Shown: in pieces, positions 17,015 to 57,782 of the stretch
How the letters are laid out: every line of letters begins with the position of its first letter
Numbering within the stretch: position 1 is the stretch's first letter
NCBI GenBank assembly: GCA_026387935.1
Contig: JAPLKU010000014.1
Location: 62,001 to 126,000 of the forward strand
From: Gemmatimonadota bacterium
Lineage (GTDB): Bacteria > Gemmatimonadota > Gemmatimonadetes > Gemmatimonadales > Gemmatimonadaceae
Length of the DNA: 64,000 nucleotides
Direction of reading: 5' to 3'
Translations under genes and position numbers: made by a program
The notes under the pieces: generated by a model
Told to the model about the DNA's origin: nothing
Database searches by the model: none
The model's input: only the letters and a program-made list of their open reading frames with translations

Positions 17015-18529
17015 TCACGTCCGGTAGTGCAGCGCTTCAGCCATCGCCGATTGACTGACCTGCGTATCGCCGTCGAGATCGGCGATCGTGCGCGCCACAC
17101 GCAGCGCTCGATGGTACGCCCGCGCACTCATCTCGAGCCGCTCTGACGCCGCTACCAACTGGATGCGCGCGTCGCGACTGATTTCGCCGAACTCCGCCAA
17201 CCACCGCCCCGGCGCATCGGCATTGGTGCGCACGCCCCCGAGCGGCTCGTAGCGTTCGCGCTGCCGATCGCGCGCGACAGCGACACGTTTTCGGATTGAC
17301 GCTGACGACTCTTCATCCTTCGCGGAACCGAGTGCCGTAATGTCGACGGCACCGACGTGTACATGCAGGTCAATCCGGTCCGCGAGTGGCCCGCTGAGCC
17401 GCGATCGGTATCGCTCGATGTCCGATGTACTGCACTGGCAACGTCCGTTGTTGCTCAGCGAGTGTCCGCACTTGCAGGGATTCGCCGCAGCAATCAGTTG
17501 AAATCGCGCGGGAAACGCGACCGCGTGCGCCGCGCGCGCGATCACCACGCAGCCATCTTCAAGTGGCTGGCGCATAGCATCGAGCACATGGCGCGGCAGT
17601 TCGAGCAGTTCGTCGAGAAAGAGCACGCCGCGGTGGGCCAGGCTCACTTCGCCCGGACGCGGGCCTGGCCCGCCCCCGATGAGCCCGGCGAGCGAGATGG
17701 TGTGATGCGGCGCGCGGAAGGGCGGCGTGCACGACGGGATCGTGCCGGGCACGATAAGTCCGCCCACCGAGTGAATTGCGACGACTTCGAGAAGTTCTTC
17801 TTCGGTAAGCGCTGGGAGGATGGCTGGGAGCCGCCGTGCAAGCATGGTCTTGCCCGCGCCAGGCGGACCCATCATCAAGACGTTGTGCCCTCCTGCCGCC
17901 GCGATCTCGAGCGCGCGTTTCGCCGCCGCCTGACCGGAGACGTCGGCAAAGTCGAGCGCGTCGGCAGAATCACATCGTTCGCGTGGGCGTTCGGGCGCCG
18001 TGACGCACGCCAGTGTCGGTCCGTGATTTCGCAACTGGGTAACGAGTGCGCCTAACGTCGATGCCGACGCAATTCGCGCCGTGCCGGCCAGCGTGGCCTC
18101 GGCGACATTTGCATCCGGCACGACCAGGCAAGCATTTGTGCGAGCGGCCGCGCGTGCGAGCGAGAGCGCGCCGCGAATGGGACGAATACTTCCGTCGAGT
18201 CCCAACTCACCCGCGACAATGAGCCCTTCGATTGCCGCCGGCGGAAGTGATCCCGTCGCGGCGAGCAACGCGAGTGCGATGGGCAAATCGAATGACGTAC
18301 CCTCCTTTCGCACGTCGGCCGGGGAGAGGTTCACCGTGATACGTCGCGACGGCACATCGAAGCCGGAGTTCGCGAGCGCGGCACTCACGCGCTCGCGCGC
18401 TTCCTTCACGGCGTTGGACGCGAGCCCAACGATGGTCCATGCGGGAAGGCCGGGAACGACATCGACCTCGACGATGATGTCGATGGCGTCGATCCCGAGC
18501 ACTGAGGCGGAGCGGATGGCGGCGAGCAT
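17015..18529 (-). CDS. comM: YifB/ComM family Mg-chelatase-like AAA+ ATPase
   Basis: A 504-residue protein. The N-terminal ChlI-like domain reads GLPAWTIVGLASNAVKEARERVSAAL and PADVRKEGTSFDLPIAL. The AAA+ core has Walker A GPPGAGKTML, Walker B GVLFLDELLELP and the FRAPHHTIS motif of the family. A zinc-ribbon-like CKCGHSLSNNGRCQCS follows, and the C-terminal domain ends in a helical lid. ComM is a hexameric helicase that drives branch migration when single-stranded DNA is integrated during natural transformation, so the host may be competent. It is a single gene, convergent with btuB and divergent from imuA. Confidence 0.93.
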   Translation of the reverse strand: MLAAIRSASVLGIDAIDIIVEVDVVPGLPAWTIVGLASNAVKEARERVSAALANSGFDVPSRRITVNLSPADVRKEGTSFDLPIALALLAATGSLPPAAIEGLIVAGELGLDGSIRPIRGALSLARAAARTNACLVVPDANVAEATLAGTARIASASTLGALVTQLRNHGPTLACVTAPERPRERCDSADALDFADVSGQAAAKRALEIAAAGGHNVLMMGPPGAGKTMLARRLPAILPALTEEELLEVVAIHSVGGLIVPGTIPSCTPPFRAPHHTISLAGLIGGGPGPRPGEVSLAHRGVLFLDELLELPRHVLDAMRQPLEDGCVVIARAAHAVAFPARFQLIAAANPCKCGHSLSNNGRCQCSTSDIERYRSRLSGPLADRIDLHVHVGAVDITALGSAKDEESSASIRKRVAVARDRQRERYEPLGGVRTNADAPGRWLAEFGEISRDARIQLVAASERLEMSARAYHRALRVARTIADLDGDTQVSQSAMAEALHYRT

Positions 18530-18722: not shown

Positions 18723-18751
18723 TTACTTTCGGCTTTTGTTCGGGTTATAAT
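18723..18751 (+). promoter_or_regulatory. imuA promoter with candidate SOS (LexA-type) operator
   Basis: TTCGGCTTTTGTTCGG at 18728-18743 is a direct repeat TTCGG-N6-TTCGG with an 11-bp period. It lies just before TATAAT (18746-18751) and overlaps the end of a weak -35 (TTACTT, 18723-18728). The same 16-mer with one change stands at the same place in the dnaE2 promoter. A repressor bound here would block the polymerase. A direct repeat with an 11-bp period is also the format of the alphaproteobacterial LexA box (GTTC-N7-GTTC). Binding by LexA is inference. The rest of the 244-base gap between comM and imuA shows no gene. Confidence 0.6.
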
Positions 18752-18773
18752 CCGGCACCAATCCTTCTTATAG

Positions 18774-19526
18774 ATGTCCGCCCAACTCGCCGAACTCCGC
18801 GCTCTTCGGACCCTCATTGAGCAGAAGTTCCCCGACGCGATCCCCCTCGCGCGGCGAACGGTCAGGCCTGCGGCAACCGGCATCACCGAGCTCGATCGCG
18901 CGCTCCCCGGCGGCGGATTCCCGCTCGGCAAGCTCTCCCTCTGCGAACCTCACGGCGGCAGCACGTCGATTCTTCGCGCTGCCTGTCTCGCCACCATCGC
19001 TAACGGCGATCGCTCCGCCTGGATAGACGGCTCGCTCACCATCACCGGTGCGTTCTGGGATGATGGGCCGCTCCTCGTCCGTCCGCGCAGCGACAAACAA
19101 GCCATCGCCGCCGCTGATCTCCTGCTCCGCTCCGGCGGATTCCGCATCGTCGTGCTCGCCGGCACCGAACTCGCCAGCGCCGACTGTGTGCGCCTCGTGC
19201 GCGCTGCGCATGAAGGAGGCGGTGCATTCGTCGCGCTGACCGAGCGCGCCACCATGGCCGCGCTCCGTCTCGCCGTGCGCATCGCGCCCGACGCCTACCG
19301 CTGGCATCACGATCCCTTCGGCGAACCGGCCGAAGCGCACGATGTTCGACTCGAAGCCGAGGTGCACGCACTCGGCTGGAACAAACGCACGACTTTCACT
19401 CTTCCGGTACAGTCGCATGAGCTTCGTCTGTCTCTGGAGCCCGGCCTGGCAGACCGTCGCGGGCGGTCAGGAAATCCCAAAACCAGCAACCAGCGCAGCC
19501 GCAGGGGGCCAGGCCGCGCGCCCTGA
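18774..19526 (+). CDS. imuA: ImuA-like translesion synthesis accessory protein (RecA-fold)
   Basis: A 250-residue RecA-like protein of the ImuA/SulA-like group. It begins MSAQLAELRALRTLIEQKFP and has GITELDRALPGGGFPLGKLSLCEP, the counterpart of the RecA nucleotide-binding start, although the Walker A is degenerate (HGGSTS). ImuA, ImuB and DnaE2 form the mutasome that copies damaged DNA when SOS is induced; ImuA bridges ImuB and RecA. The last 25-30 residues are Arg/Gly/Pro-rich, out of keeping with the domain, and are encoded where imuB already overlaps. A candidate SOS operator lies upstream. Confidence 0.85.
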   Translation: MSAQLAELRALRTLIEQKFPDAIPLARRTVRPAATGITELDRALPGGGFPLGKLSLCEPHGGSTSILRAACLATIANGDRSAWIDGSLTITGAFWDDGPLLVRPRSDKQAIAAADLLLRSGGFRIVVLAGTELASADCVRLVRAAHEGGGAFVALTERATMAALRLAVRIAPDAYRWHHDPFGEPAEAHDVRLEAEVHALGWNKRTTFTLPVQSHELRLSLEPGLADRRGRSGNPKTSNQRSRRGPGRAP

Positions 19527-20853
19527 AATCGCGGCCACACTCCTCGCGCGCGCGCCACGCGTGGCAGTTGGCGAACGTGGTGTGATCTGGGCCGACGCGC
19601 ATGGATTTTCCGTGCATGGCAAAGCGATGCTCGCCGCCGAACTCATTGCGATGCTCGAACGGCGCGGCGTGCAGCATGTGCGCGCCGGTGTGGCCGACAC
19701 GCCCATCGCGGCGATGCTCGCGGCGATGGGCGGCGCGCATCAGCTCGTTGTCGTTCAGCCCGGCACCGATCGCGCGTACGTCGCGCTCTTTCCGCTCAGC
19801 GCACTGGAGCCCGACCGGCGGCTCCGTCCCCTGCTCTTCGGCATCGGCGTTTCCACCTGCGGCGAACTCGCGGCGCTCGAACGCGAATCCATCGAAGTCC
19901 GGCTCGGCGCCACCGCCGTGCCGCTCTGGCGTCTCGCGCGCGCGGATGACAATCGGCTGATCTTCTCGCCCTCGCCGCCCGAGGCGCCCCACGCCTCACT
20001 CGACTGGGTGGAGTACGCGCTCAAGGATCCGACGCGACTACTCTTCGTGCTCAACAATCTCATCGAACGCGTCTGCACGACGCTCATCACCACCGGCGAG
20101 GGCGCGCGCGATCTCACGATTGACTTCGCGCTCACCAACAAACAGGTGCATGTCGAAGTGATTCGCGCGTCACGCCCCACGGCCAATCGCCGCACCTGGG
20201 TGCGGCTCGCGCGCACGCGCGTAGAGCGCATGACGCTCAGTGCTGCCGTCACGGGCATCACCGTGCACGCGTCGACGATCGCCGAGCGTGAGGCACCGCA
20301 GGGTGATTTGTTTGATAAGGGACTCGCGAGCAACCAGGCGACGGAGGATGCCGTCGCGCGCCTCATCGAGGATCAGGGCGCTGTAGTGGTTGCGCCGCAG
20401 AACACGGCGCACCCGTTGCTCGATGAACGCACCACCTGGGTACCGCAGGTGCCACGCCAGACGATTCGTCTCACCACGCTTCCCTCCGCCGTGCGTGAAC
20501 GGCTGCAGCCGGTGAAACCGCAGCTCCTCCTGCAGCTCGCACCATCGCCGCTCTCGATTACCGTCGAGACGTCACCGCGCCGCGATCATCTCGTGCCCGT
20601 GCGGTACCGCGATGCCAATGGCTGGCACGAGGTGGTGAATGTGGCCGGCCCTGAGCGCGTCTCGGGCCGTCACTGGGACGGCGACACGGCCTACGCGCGC
20701 GAGTATTTCCGCTGCGTTACGCGCGAAGGCGTGTTGGTCTGGATCTTTCGCGATGCGAACGAACGCAAACCGGGCCGCGCGGGAACACGTGCACGAAGAC
20801 GCGAAACGAGCAATCCCACCAGCCAGTGGTATCTCCATGGCTGGTGGGACTGA
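19417..20853 (+). CDS. imuB: ImuB, Y-family polymerase-like mutasome hub
   Basis: A 478-residue Y-family polymerase homologue. The start MSFVCLWSPAWQTVA matches the family opening, so the ATG at 19417 is chosen although it overlaps imuA by 110 nt. Palm and finger parts follow (AVGERGVIWADAHGF, then VRAGVADTPIAAMLAA). ImuB lacks polymerase activity and acts as scaffold for DnaE2 and the sliding clamp. A clamp-binding motif of the QxxLF type, QGDLF, is at residues 295-299. The C-terminal part resembles the extra domain of ImuB proteins. The last codons form half of a terminator hairpin. Confidence 0.88.
   Translation: MSFVCLWSPAWQTVAGGQEIPKPATSAAAGGQAARPEIAATLLARAPRVAVGERGVIWADAHGFSVHGKAMLAAELIAMLERRGVQHVRAGVADTPIAAMLAAMGGAHQLVVVQPGTDRAYVALFPLSALEPDRRLRPLLFGIGVSTCGELAALERESIEVRLGATAVPLWRLARADDNRLIFSPSPPEAPHASLDWVEYALKDPTRLLFVLNNLIERVCTTLITTGEGARDLTIDFALTNKQVHVEVIRASRPTANRRTWVRLARTRVERMTLSAAVTGITVHASTIAEREAPQGDLFDKGLASNQATEDAVARLIEDQGAVVVAPQNTAHPLLDERTTWVPQVPRQTIRLTTLPSAVRERLQPVKPQLLLQLAPSPLSITVETSPRRDHLVPVRYRDANGWHEVVNVAGPERVSGRHWDGDTAYAREYFRCVTREGVLVWIFRDANERKPGRAGTRARRRETSNPTSQWYLHGWWD
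20814..20849. terminator. Hairpin at the imuB 3' end, shared with the convergent amidase
   Basis: TCCCACCAGCCA (20814-20825) pairs perfectly with TGGCTGGTGGGA (20838-20849), a 12-bp stem with a 12-nt loop. It lies within the last codons of imuB. The amidase gene ends 25 bases further on from the other side, so the hairpin probably stops both transcripts. No clear T-run follows in either direction. Confidence 0.5.
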
Positions 20854-20874
20854 ACAAACGCTCGTGATCGCGGA

Positions 20875-22800
20875 TTACAACTTCGGGTGCTTGTTATGCC
20901 ACTCCGAGTGAATCTGGAACTGATGCGCCACCGAAAGAATCTTGTCGTCGTTGTAGAGATTGCCCGCGAGCACTGCGCAAATCGGCTGCGGATTGTACAC
21001 CACCGGCGGCGTGGTCGAATCAGCACCGGCGCGACCACCGCCACCAGCACCACCGCCACCGGGACCACCGCCGCGACCTGACGGCTGCGGCTCGAACTTG
21101 TACTGCACCACCGCGCAGGGATGCCCTGTCGAGGCGTGGAGACCGACGTCGAATCCGCCGGCGCCAGGCACGTACATGTCGAGCCCCTTCAGCAGCGTCT
21201 GCATCTCGCTGATCAGAATGTGCCGACGGCGCTGTGCGTTGATGAAATCAAAGGCACGCGGGAAACGGCCACCCGTCCAGCGCGTGAGCGCCGCCATGCC
21301 GGTTGGATTTCCCGCATCGCCACGACCGCCCGCACCTGCGCCCGCTGCTGCGGCAGCTGCTGCACCAGCGCGCCCTGCCGCAGAAGTGTCCGCCGCGCCG
21401 CGACCACCGCCGCGAGCACCGCCGCCACCACCACCGCCACCACCGCGACCGGGCTGCGGCTCGGGAATCGAGGCGAGGTCGATGCCAAGTTCCTTCGCCT
21501 TCATCTGCACGTACGAGTCGAATGCGGCGGAAGACTCGCCACCAAAACCGCCACCGGCGAGCGTCGGACGCGGGCCGAGCGGCGTGGGAGTGGCGCCGAG
21601 GGCCTTGAGGCCGTCCATGAACTCCTTCGGGGCCATGGCATCGACGCCAATCTTCAGCGAGGCAAGTTTGATGTTACGGTCGAAATGAAACGGCGTGGTC
21701 ACCGTACCAGGATCCTTGACGTCCACGCCGTGAATGATATTGAACACGAGCGCGCAGTCTTCGATGGTCCGACAGATGGGCCCGACACGGTCCTGCGACC
21801 AGGCCAGCACCATACCGCCGTACCGGCTCACGCGACCAAACGTTGGACGGAGCGCGCTGAGTCCGCACTCGCGTGCTGGCGATACGATTGAACCAGATGT
21901 TTCGGTTCCGATTCCGAACGCCACGCAGCCTGCCGCCGTCGCGGACGACGGGCCGGCCGAAGAACCGCTCGATCCACGGCGCACATCCCACGGATTGTTC
22001 GTGCGGCCGCGGTACCACTGATCGCCAGAGGCGAAGAGGCCCGTCGCAAGCTTCGCGATAAGCACTGCACCGGCTTCGCGCAGACGCACCACGACCTCGG
22101 CGTCCTCATCAATGATGCGATTCTCGAAATCCTTCGAGCCCCAGGTCGTGCGCACGCCCTTTGTCGAGAAGAGATCCTTCACGCCATACGGAATGCCGTG
22201 CAGCGGGCCACGATTTTTGCCGGCCTTGAGTTCGGCATCGGCACGCGCGGCTTCGGCGAGCGCCTGCTCTTCCATGATCGTCACGGCACAGAGCAGCGTC
22301 GGGTCGAGCCGCTTAAGCCGCTCGAGGTAGATCTTCGTGAGCTGCGTCGACGTGATCTTCTTCGCCGCGATCAATGCGGAGAGCCGATGCACGGGAAGAA
22401 AGGCTATCGTCTCTGGGTCCGTCGGCACAGCGCCAACCCATGGCTGCACCACGAACTTCTCACGCTTGAATGCGGCCGCACCGCGCTCGGCGATGAGTTT
22501 CTCCATCAGGTCGCCGGTGCCGCCAGGCCATGGCTGGAAGGTCCACGACACGGGCTCGCCATTGCCGAGCGGCGGAAGCGGTGCCTGCGGCGCGCCCGGA
22601 GGCCCGCCTGGAGCCCCACCGGCAGCGCCTTGCGCCAGTGCATTCGCACCGAAACCGAAGGTCGTCGCCGCCGCACTCACGAGCGAGAGAAAGACAAAGT
22701 CGCGGCGCGCGAGGCCGCCAAAGTCTTCGCTTTCCTCTCCCATCAGCTCGGCCTCGGCCTGCAACTGGTCGAGAAGTTCGAGTTCGTGGCGCACGGTCAT
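20875..22800 (-). CDS. Tat-exported amidase-signature enzyme with polyglycine inserts
   Basis: A 641-residue amidase-signature hydrolase. A twin-arginine signal, ARRDFVFLSL at residues 31-40, follows an unusual 30-residue acidic leader. The catalytic Lys is in HGIPYGVKDLF, the cis-Ser in GSSGSSAGPSSATAAG and the nucleophile Ser in GTETSGSIVSPA. Two low-complexity stretches of Gly, Ala and Arg interrupt the C-terminal half (roughly encoded at 21305-21465 and 21010-21090), which explains the length above the usual 450-520. ATG 22800 has GGAG upstream. It hydrolyses an amide of unknown nature, probably in the periplasm. It sits between imuB and dnaE2 in opposite orientation. Confidence 0.87.
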   Translation of the reverse strand: MTVRHELELLDQLQAEAELMGEESEDFGGLARRDFVFLSLVSAAATTFGFGANALAQGAAGGAPGGPPGAPQAPLPPLGNGEPVSWTFQPWPGGTGDLMEKLIAERGAAAFKREKFVVQPWVGAVPTDPETIAFLPVHRLSALIAAKKITSTQLTKIYLERLKRLDPTLLCAVTIMEEQALAEAARADAELKAGKNRGPLHGIPYGVKDLFSTKGVRTTWGSKDFENRIIDEDAEVVVRLREAGAVLIAKLATGLFASGDQWYRGRTNNPWDVRRGSSGSSAGPSSATAAGCVAFGIGTETSGSIVSPARECGLSALRPTFGRVSRYGGMVLAWSQDRVGPICRTIEDCALVFNIIHGVDVKDPGTVTTPFHFDRNIKLASLKIGVDAMAPKEFMDGLKALGATPTPLGPRPTLAGGGFGGESSAAFDSYVQMKAKELGIDLASIPEPQPGRGGGGGGGGGARGGGRGAADTSAAGRAGAAAAAAAGAGAGGRGDAGNPTGMAALTRWTGGRFPRAFDFINAQRRRHILISEMQTLLKGLDMYVPGAGGFDVGLHASTGHPCAVVQYKFEPQPSGRGGGPGGGGAGGGGRAGADSTTPPVVYNPQPICAVLAGNLYNDDKILSVAHQFQIHSEWHNKHPKL

Positions 22801-22937
22801 TAGTGTCTCCGCTGCGGTCGGTTGGTGGCTGGTGTCATTCAGGCGCTGGCCGCGCCTTTGTAATAGATGCGAGAACGGCTTCGTCAGCGCCAGACAACAG
22901 CAGCGCTTTGTGATGCGAACAGTGACATCGCGCCCCC

Positions 22938-22965
22938 TTGTGCTTCGGCTTTTATTCGGTATCTT
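22938..22965 (+). promoter_or_regulatory. dnaE2 promoter with candidate SOS (LexA-type) operator
   Basis: TTCGGCTTTTATTCGG at 22944-22959 differs by one base from the element before imuA. Here it fills exactly the 16-base spacer between TTGTGC (-35-like, 22938-22943) and TATCTT (-10, 22960-22965). The start codon is 13 bases after the -10. The placement fits a repressor site controlling both halves of the mutasome. The rest of the gap 22801-22943 holds the divergent start region of the amidase and no other gene. Confidence 0.6.
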
Positions 22966-22978
22966 TTCCAACCCGATT

Positions 22979-25900
22979 ATGACCCTGCCAGCTGTCGAAC
23001 TCCGCGCGCACACCGCCTTCTCCTTCGGCGATGGCGCAGTCACGCCAGAGGCGATGGTCGATCGCGCGGCAGACCTCGGGTACTCGGCACTTGGGATCAC
23101 GGATACAGCGGACTTGGGTGGCCTCGTGCGCGCCGCGCTCATCGCGAAGTTACGCGGCATTCAGATGATCGCGGGCGCCGAACTCAATGTGGACGGCCGT
23201 CCCGTCGCATTTCTCGCGCGCACCGAGGCCGGCTACCGAAACCTCGCCGCGCTCGTCACTGAATCGCGCGTGGGGATCTGGAAAACGTGGGAAAAGACGC
23301 ACGCCGGCATGCGGCGCGGCCAACCGAACGTCACTTGGGCGCAGGTGGCCGAGCGCGCCGACGGACTGTTCGCACTCACCGGGCCTGCGTCGGGCACGTG
23401 CGCCACGCTCCTGCGTGCCAATGATCGGGACCGCGCCGACCGAATACTGGCCGAGTGGAAAGAAGCGTTCGGTGAGCACGTCGCGGTGGAAGTGCATCTC
23501 CATCATGTGGATGGCGCCGAAGCGGTGCTTGCCGCAGAACTCATCCGCCTCGCCGCGCGCGGCGGCGTGAGCTGGGTAGCCGCGCAGGACGCGCGCTACA
23601 TCGACGACACGAGCCGCCTCGTGCACGATCTGCTCACGGCGCTGCGACATGAGATGACGATTGATGACGCACTCAAGGCCGGCGTGTTGCATCCCAACGG
23701 CGAGTGGAAACTCCTCGCCCCCGCCAACCTTCGTCTCCGCTGGAAGGGCTGCGAATCGGGCCTCGACGAAGCGGCGCGCATCGCGAGTCAATGCGGGTTC
23801 GATCTCTCGTGGATGCGTCCGCCCCTGCCCTCCTTCCCCGTGCCCGCCGGAACGCACGAGAACGATTTCCTCCGCGCGCGCGTGTACGAGGGGGCCGCGA
23901 CTCGTTGGGGCGCCACGCTCAGTGACGCGCAGACAAAACAACTCGACCACGAACTCGCCCTCATCAAGCAACTCGGATTCGCCGGATTTTTCCTCGTCAT
24001 GTGGGATGCCGTGCGCTTCGCCCAGGCGCGCGGGATTCTCTGCCAGGGCCGCGGGAGCGCCGCCAACTCCGCCGTCGTCTATTGCCTCGGCATCTCGGCG
24101 GTGGATCCCGTGAAAAACGGCCTCCTCTTCGAACGTTTTCTCTCGGAAACCCGCGTGGACGGAAAGGCCGAGGCGCCGGACATTGACGTGGACTTCGAGC
24201 ATGACCGGCGCGAGGAAGTGATCGACTACATGTACGAGCGCTACGCGCGGCCGCACGCCGCCATCGCCTGCATAGTGCAGACCTACCGCGCGCCGAACGC
24301 CGTGCAGGACGCGATGCGCGCATTTGGCTATCCAGCGGATCTCGCCACGTCCATTTCCAGGAAGCTGCATCGGTACGATCCACTCGACGCCGCAATCAAG
24401 ATGCAGGAGAAGTACGCGGTGCAAGCGGGGCTCGACATCAATGCGCCGCGCGTAAGATCGCTGCTCCGCGCTATCTCCGGCTTTGAGGGGCTGCCCCGTC
24501 TCCGTGCCACGCATGTTGGCGGGTTCGTGCTCTCCGGTCAGCCGCTCGGCAACTGGCTCCCCATCGAGCAGACGAACATGGGGCGGACCATCGTCCAGTT
24601 CGACAAGGACGACCTCGATGCCATCGGCGTGCCCAAGTTTGATTTCCTCGGACTCGGCGGGCTCGCGATGGTGCGTCGCGCCTTTGACGCCATCGAAGCG
24701 CGCGTCGGGCGGCGGCCTACGATGTACAAGCTGCCCATCGATGATCAACCGACCTACGACCTCATCTCGCGCGGCGAGACGGTGGGCACGTTTCAGATCG
24801 AGAGCCGCGCGCAGATCGCATCGGTGGTGCATACCAAGCCCGACCGGCTCTACGACATCGTCGTGCAGGTGGCGCTCATTCGGCCCGGCCCCATTCAGGC
24901 GAAGTTCGTGCGCCCGTACATCAAGCGACGTCGCGGGCACGAAGAGCCCACGTACGTGCATCCGGCGCTCGAACCGATTCTCAAACGCACGCAGGGGATT
25001 CCGATTTTCCAGGAACAGGCCATGGCCATCGCGATGGCACTCGCCGGTTACACCGGCGCCGAAGCCGATGACATGCGGCGCACGATGGGCAATATGCGAA
25101 AGGAAGCGCGATTGCTCGCCGCACTGGAGCGCCTGCGCGAGCGACTGGTGAACAACGACATCACGCCGCGCATTCCGCCGGAGATGGCGCAGCAGATCTG
25201 CGACGACATGCGGGGCTTCGCGAACTACGGTTTCCCCGAATCACATGCCTGGAGTTTTGCGCTCATCGCCTACGCGACGGCCTGGCTCAAGGTGCACTAC
25301 CCGACGGAGTTCTTCCTCGGGATTCTCAATGCGTGGCCGATGGGGTTTTACTCGCCGGCCACACTGATTCACGAGGCCAAGCGGCATGGCGTGGAAGTAC
25401 GACCGCCCTGCCTGCACTCAGGCGACTGGGAATGCACCACCGAACGCGCGTTGCCGCTCACGGCGGAGCGGCAGGCCATTCAGCGGCGCTTCGTGCGCAC
25501 AGCGCCGTCCACGCCACACCCGGCGCTGCGCGTGGGCTGGCGCTTCGTGCGCGGCGTCAGCCAGCGCGCGCTGGAGTCCCTGCGCCACGCGCGACTCCGC
25601 GCGCCCTTCGACTCCATCGCCGACGTCACATCGCGCGCCACGCTCACGCGCGCCGAAGTGAACTTTCTCGCGCAGGCCGGCGCCTTCTCTGCCTGGGAGC
25701 CCGATCGGCGCCGTGCCGCGTGGGAAGCGCTGCGGGCCATGAACGACACGCTGCCCCTCGCGCCCGCGCATCGCACACCGCACCACCCCGCTCCGCTCAC
25801 GCGCGACGAGATCATCACGCTCGACTACTACTCCACCGGCATCACCATCAACGGCCATCCCATGATGGCCCACCGAGAGCGCCTCAAGGCCCTCGGCGTA

Positions 25901-26212
25901 AAGGACAGCAGCGAGATCGAACGTATGCCCAATCGGAAGGACGTCTCCGTTGCCGGGCTCGTCGTTATTCGCCAGCGGCCGCATACGGCGAATGGGGTGC
26001 TCTTCCTGTTACTGGAGGATGAGCATGGGTTCATCAACGTCGTGGTGAAGAAGGACGACGTGGAGCCCAATGAAGACATCGTGAAGCGCGCGCAGTTCGT
26101 GCTCGTGCACGGCTACATCGGCCGTGAGGGCAACGCGCTTTCCATCGTCGGGCGGCAGTACGAGGCGATCGAGGCTGAGTCGCTCACCCAACAGTCGCGG
26201 GACTTCAAGTAA
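22979..26212 (+). CDS. dnaE2: Error-prone DNA polymerase DnaE2
   Basis: A 1077-residue C-family polymerase of the length usual for DnaE2. The PHP domain starts [22 protein letters not shown], but the metal motif usually read TDHDG is TDTAD ([10 protein letters not shown]), a departure from most relatives. The polymerase core has [17 protein letters not shown], the catalytic aspartates in [16 protein letters not shown], and [25 protein letters not shown]. A C-terminal OB-fold region follows ([15 protein letters not shown]). It inserts bases opposite lesions together with ImuA and ImuB. The ATG at 22979 agrees with the promoter; the frame is open further upstream but lies antisense to the amidase. 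Confidence 0.95.
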   Translation: [1077 protein letters not shown]

Positions 26213-57059: not shown

Positions 57060-57782
57060 GTGAAACACGAACTCGACGTGCTCGCGATCGGCGCACACCG
57101 CGACGATGTGGAACTCACCTGCGGCGGCACCCTCGCACGGCTCAAGCGCCTCGGCCGCCGCACAGGCATCGTGGACCTCACGCAGGGCGAGATGGGGTCG
57201 CGCGGCTCGGCCGCCACGCGCGCGGACGAAGCCGCCAAAGCGGCGGCCATCCTCGGTGTGGAGGTTCGCGAGAATCTCGCGTTGCCCGATGCGGGTATCA
57301 CCAACACTCCGGAGACGCGCGCCGCACTGGCACGGATCATTCGACGGCTTCGGCCTGCGGTGGTGATCGCTCCAGCACCGCGCGGACGGCACCCGGACCA
57401 TCGGGTGGCCGCGCAACTCATTCGCGACGCCGTGTTTGTGGCTGGCCTCGCCAAGGTGGCGCCCGATGTGCCGGCGTACCGACCGCGCAAAGTCGTGCAC
57501 GCGATTGCCTACCGCGAAGATCATGTGAAGCCGACTTTCGTCGTGGATATCAGCGACGATTTCGAGACCAAGCTCAACGCGGTGCGGTGCTACGGCTCGC
57601 AATTCGACGGCGCCACGCAGGCCGGTGAGGTCTACCCTACTGGCGATCCACTCTACCAAGTGCTGCGCCACCAGGCGTCGCACTACGGCTCACTCATTCG
57701 GTGCCGCTTCGGCGAACCCTACTACACACACGAAACCATGCGCGTTGACGACATCTCCACCCTCGAGGTTTCCACCTTTTGA
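57060..57782 (+). CDS. bshB1: Bacillithiol biosynthesis deacetylase BshB1
   Basis: A 240-residue zinc deacetylase that converts GlcNAc-malate to GlcN-malate on the way to bacillithiol. The LmbE-fold metal motif is AIGAHRDDVELTCGG, with a second His-x-x-Asp-His in RGRHPDHRVAAQLI. VDLTQGEMGSRGSAATRADEAAKAAAILGV is the BshB1 signature. GTG 57060 gives MKHELDVLAIGAH, the family N-terminus, and sits 6 bases after TATCTT; an ATG five codons upstream would overlap the -10. bshA and bshC are not in the window. Its stop overlaps the tryptophan dioxygenase start. Confidence 0.92.
   Translation: MKHELDVLAIGAHRDDVELTCGGTLARLKRLGRRTGIVDLTQGEMGSRGSAATRADEAAKAAAILGVEVRENLALPDAGITNTPETRAALARIIRRLRPAVVIAPAPRGRHPDHRVAAQLIRDAVFVAGLAKVAPDVPAYRPRKVVHAIAYREDHVKPTFVVDISDDFETKLNAVRCYGSQFDGATQAGEVYPTGDPLYQVLRHQASHYGSLIRCRFGEPYYTHETMRVDDISTLEVSTF

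Follow-up and report, generated by a model that had tools for sequence, protein, structure and literature searches.

A direct-repeat motif shared by imuA and dnaE2 as the probable LexA (SOS) operator of Gemmatimonadota

Why should two separate units of a mutagenesis locus carry the same 16-nt direct repeat in their promoters? The question is raised by a 64-kb stretch of a Gemmatimonadota genome (hereafter the window), in which the imuA-imuB/dnaE2 cassette is split by a gene on the opposite strand. The first unit consists of an imuA-like gene (18774-19526, + strand), coding for a putative RecA-like mutasome accessory protein, and of imuB (19417-20853, + strand), coding for a Y-family polymerase-like protein (IMS_C; DNA polymerase IV-like). 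The ImuA family match was weak (46 bits against a cut-off of 150), and the assignment also draws on synteny and homology in relatives. The start of imuB is inferred, and the gene overlaps the end of imuA. The second unit is dnaE2 (22979-26212, + strand), an error-prone DNA polymerase III alpha homologue that scored above the cut-off of NCBIfam PRK05672 (1029.6 bits) and whose closest relatives were all named Gemmatimonadota. The intervening gene, amidase-like and named by eye, lies on the minus strand (20875-22802) and contains Gly/Ala-rich low-complexity inserts. A ComM/YifB-like (Mg-chelatase-type AAA) gene, also named by eye, diverges from imuA (17015-18529, minus strand), and the imuA box lies in the intergenic stretch that the two genes share. 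The locus has the make-up of a LexA-regulated imuA-imuB-dnaE2 cassette, whose genes may be contiguous or split, with a candidate box on each unit and an ImuA recognized by a weak family match.

Both 16-mers lie on the + strand exactly where the first-pass annotation had placed them. The imuA copy, TTCGGCTTTTGTTCGG, occupies 18728-18743, with the start codon 30 bp further on. It sits between a putative -35 element, TTACTT (18723-18728), recognized from the sequence and its 17-bp spacing to TATAAT, and that putative -10 element (18746-18751), which begins 2 bases past the end of the box. The dnaE2 copy, TTCGGCTTTTATTCGG, occupies 22944-22959, with the start codon 19 bp further on. Here the box is the exact 16-bp spacer between a putative -35 element, TTGTGC (22938-22943), which agrees with the TTGC -35 position of lexA promoters, and a putative -10 element, TATCTT (22960-22965). 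The promoter placement claimed earlier, an exact spacer fill at dnaE2 and a 2-base distance from TATAAT at imuA, matches the sequence. Three copies of TTCGG-N6-TTCGG were present in the window, whereas dinucleotide shuffles gave a mean of 0.23 and none of 100 reached three. The third copy, TTCGGTGCCGCTTCGG at 57697, lies inside a coding region, is devoid of the T-rich spacer and is probably due to chance. No further position in the window matched the dnaE2 16-mer with three or fewer mismatches. We propose, with a probability of about 0.95, that the two 16-mers are LexA (SOS) operators of Gemmatimonadota, built as a direct repeat with an 11-bp period.

The first-pass annotation had read the shared 16-mers as a candidate SOS box and had pointed to lexA and recA as promoters in which to look for it. 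Within the same genome, a Gemmatimonadota MAG of 2.8 Mb in 28 contigs (~95% complete), we found 12 exact TTCGG-N6-TTCGG sites. The canonical lexA has two tandem boxes directly upstream, TTCGGCCAATCTTCGG and TTCGGGGGTTATTCGG, 26 bp apart (C11:86304 and 86330), and the recA promoter contains a one-base variant, TTCGTACTATGTTCGG. The motif was conserved in relatives. In a set of lexA promoters from 60 genomes and ten families, one of which (f10) lies outside the class, TTCG-N7-TTCG was present in all 60 and in at least two copies in 59, while shuffled promoters gave a mean of 1.15 of 60 and a maximum of 4. The direct repeat, typically TTCGTAnTTTnTTCGG, was likewise found in 30/30 recA promoters of the family (shuffles, 0.5). 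The presence of the motif at lexA and recA, and its conservation, support the SOS-box reading. The lexA promoters of f10, from another class of the phylum (L120-L124), mostly had TTCGC-N6-TTCGC, so the fifth and last base of the half-site drifts between classes.

The dnaE2 loci of relatives gave a similar picture. Across 12 such loci (~234 kb, both strands), all 18 exact boxes preceded imuA (10), dnaE2 (4) or a radical SAM gene (4), and imuA was preceded by a box in each of the 10 relatives whose locus contains it. Where dnaE2 lay more than 1 kb from imuB, it had its own box (4/4 loci, namely three relatives and the window); where it followed imuB within 0.55 kb, it had none (8/8 loci). At L043, dnaE2 had a box, with no imuA or imuB within the stretch examined. 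The radical SAM gene, which is Rv2578c-like, lies with its own box ~1.2-2.6 kb upstream of imuA in several relatives (L044, L047, L049 and L051); no copy of it was detected in the window by tblastn.

The genome also encodes a LexA with the HTH domain and the S24 self-cleavage residues expected of a cognate repressor. This protein, LexA1 (202 aa), passes TIGR00498, contains LexA winged-helix and S24 domains, and keeps Ala87-Gly88 as the site of cleavage together with Ser122 and Lys160 (residues numbered along the sequence); the boxes and an intact LexA therefore occur together in this genome. The recognition-helix region of LexA1 (SLATVHEHL) hardly varies within the phylum and is closer to that of Listeria and Collinsella LexA (TVHxHL) than to that of the alphaproteobacterium Cereibacter (SKSGIHRLI). 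A LexA tree neither resolved nor rejected a joint alphaproteobacterial and Gemmatimonadota clade (p-AU 0.34, with a single alphaproteobacterial sequence).

A second LexA-like gene, LexA2, lies directly after gltX (L014:1486-2112; G000:C5:9999). We consider it very unlikely that LexA2, or a damage regulator other than LexA, is the main protein bound at the box and that LexA1 is only one of its targets. LexA2 does carry the LexA DNA-binding domain, and LexA2-like matches occur in most genomes of the family. However, it scores just under the TIGR00498 cut-off, contains neither the Ala-Gly cleavage site nor the Ser/Lys dyad, and is not preceded by any visible box; for these reasons it is unlikely to be the SOS repressor. 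It appears instead to be a non-cleavable LexA paralogue. LexA1, on the other hand, is apparently autoregulated, given the box in 60/60 lexA promoters.

The arrangement of the boxes bears on a different alternative, that TTCGG-N6-TTCGG is a core-promoter element of the phylum (an extended -35/-10) and not a repressor site. The consensus is TTCGG-nn-T-w-T-n-TTCGG (core TTCG-N7-TTCG, spacer nnTnTn), and a direct spacing of 11 accounted for 160 occurrences in 90 lexA and recA promoters (commonest inverted spacing, 6). At lexA, TTGC begins 6 nt before box 1 in 46/54 promoters and TAnnnT follows box 1 by 1 nt in 49/54; box 2 is located further downstream, close to where transcription is expected to start. 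In the imuA, dnaE2 and radical SAM set, a -10-like TAnnnT begins 0-4 nt past the box. The recA promoters have a TTGA -35 and, 17 bp on, a TATTTT -10 that is embedded in the box (TTCG directly followed by TATTTT). The recA boxes (L126-L155) are consistently unlike all others in their first half-site, TTCGT, apparently because of this embedded hexamer. The box is thus always near the -35/-10, as a core element would be, but its register relative to the -10 varies, and a second copy at lexA lies downstream. The promoter can therefore be blocked from different registers, which is repressor-like and unlike a core element. Moreover, the excess of the box amounts to only ~11 sites per genome, with enrichment at DNA-repair genes. 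We regard the core-promoter explanation as extremely improbable. A LexA operator, by comparison, is expected to overlap the core promoter as observed here, either by filling the spacer (lexA, imuA and dnaE2) or by overlapping the -10 (recA).

Random genome-wide occurrence, which would have spoken against the first-pass annotation, can be ruled out. Over 59 genomes of the family, we counted 883 exact matches against 209 for a reversed-pattern control, with an excess in 58 of the 59; in eight non-Gemmatimonadota genomes used as a negative control, the figures were 97 and 72. Within single genomes, roughly one exact match in two lay inside a gene or before an unrelated gene, and these matches resemble background. 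TTCGG is a frequent word in GC-rich coding DNA, and several matches to the motif in this genome are intragenic. That the boxes are mere chance or compositional repetitions of this word nevertheless has a negligible probability, as it is refuted by the shuffle and reversed-pattern controls and by phylum-wide conservation at homologous promoters. The looser TTCG-N7-TTCGG gave 59 sites in the same genome, most of them intragenic by GC3, a simple test that mislabels true promoter sites such as that of dnaE2. With so many sites, mostly intragenic, this pattern was too loose to serve as a regulon predictor.

Following the established LexA/RecA pathway, a LexA1 dimer on TTCGG-N6-TTCGG would cover the spacer or the -10 and exclude RNA polymerase. 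Upon DNA damage, RecA filaments on single-stranded DNA would trigger self-cleavage of LexA1 between Ala87 and Gly88. The operator would then empty, which would allow joint expression of imuA-imuB and dnaE2 (the mutasome), lexA, recA and further repair genes. The two boxes at lexA may provide tight autoregulation.

Other genes may belong to the same regulon. The gyrB gene of this genome is preceded by TTCGGCCTTTGTTCGC (L264:1501-1516; G000:C22:189913), and a gyrB box was present in 24/30 genomes of the family, this one included (relatives, L266-L295), with degenerate copies in several others. This suggests that the gene for DNA gyrase subunit B belongs to the SOS genes of the family. A Cdd1/HhH gene of the same genome is preceded by TTCGGCTTTCATTCGG. 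Single-genome candidates from three relatives included the Rv2578c-like radical SAM gene, a TIGR03916 'DNA repair' radical SAM gene, UvrA, UvrD, Ku, a Rad52-like gene and DUF5131; we regard these as candidate leads. One relative had a cluster of boxes near DUF5131 and small unknown genes (G031:C2:1371755, 1372018 and 1374660), with some of the boxes overlapping as triple TTCGG repeats; the cluster is possibly an SOS-controlled mobile element. In Deinococcus, gyrB, recA, uvrA and uvrD are likewise under one damage-controlled repressor, through the RDRM/DdrO system (PMC8072749), but DdrO belongs to the XRE proteins, undergoes cleavage by IrrE and has a palindromic motif. The conserved gyrB boxes suggest that DNA supercoiling belongs to the damage response of the phylum.

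Among known LexA boxes, the Gram-positive/actinobacterial one is a palindrome of the CGAAC-N4-GTTCG type. It shares TTCG in the half-site with the box described here, and the TVHxHL recognition region of Listeria and Collinsella LexA resembles that of LexA1, but this box is an inverted and not a direct repeat. The E. coli box, CTGT-N8-ACAG, has the same role and promoter placement and is also palindromic, unlike the repeat found here. Neither GAAC-N4-GTTC nor CTGT-N8-ACAG occurred in any of the 60 lexA promoters. Tried on the lexA and recA promoters, both palindromes were rejected as descriptions of the motif. On the palindromic boxes, the LexA DNA-binding domains read the DNA head-to-head. 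The half-sites described here repeat in the same direction at a distance of one helical turn and so share one face of the DNA, which means that both DNA-binding domains would have the same orientation (head-to-tail).

In the literature searched, the coverage of which was incomplete, we found no description of a LexA box from Gemmatimonadota (Gemmatimonas), and an earlier one may exist. Provisionally, the box may be seen as a new motif of a kind already known. A phylum for which that literature describes no SOS operator would gain a LexA box and, therefore, a predictable damage regulon. The box would also explain how the mutagenic DnaE2 cassette of the phylum is controlled.

Seventeen LexA boxes had been reported by 2021, including the alphaproteobacterial direct repeat GTTC-N7-GTTC (PMC8565304), and the type of the Gemmatimonadota box had been likened to the latter. 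The likeness held for architecture, as the LexA operator of SOS genes there and the probable one here both have a direct repeat, an 11-bp period and a TTC core (PMC8565304). It did not extend to sequence. The half-site is GTTC there and TTCGG here, and GTTC-N7-GTTC occurred in only 5/60 lexA promoters (0.75 expected); the box is therefore not the alphaproteobacterial motif. The recognition regions also differ (SKSGIHRLI in Cereibacter and SLATVHEHL here). The Balneolaeota box, TTACACATATTTTWTACATA, is also a direct repeat, an EMSA-proven LexA site whose regulon includes a radical SAM gene, as does the candidate regulon here (PMC7739468). By our own count, its two ACATA words are 11 bp apart, but its half-site sequence is unrelated. 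We hold it possible, at somewhat under even odds, that the half-site read by LexA in Gemmatimonadota is a Gram-positive-like one, TTCG, whose orientation has changed from inverted to direct with one helical turn between the copies, as a further independent 11-bp direct-repeat case after Alphaproteobacteria and Balneolaeota, and that gyrB is under SOS control across the family. If true, this would point to a shared structural constraint on LexA, that of a symmetric dimer whose DNA-binding domains are flexible. How such a dimer sits on a direct repeat could be tested through a comparison of LexA proteins that are unrelated to one another. The box described here would join a small group of direct-repeat LexA boxes, and the three compared here have the 11-bp period in common.
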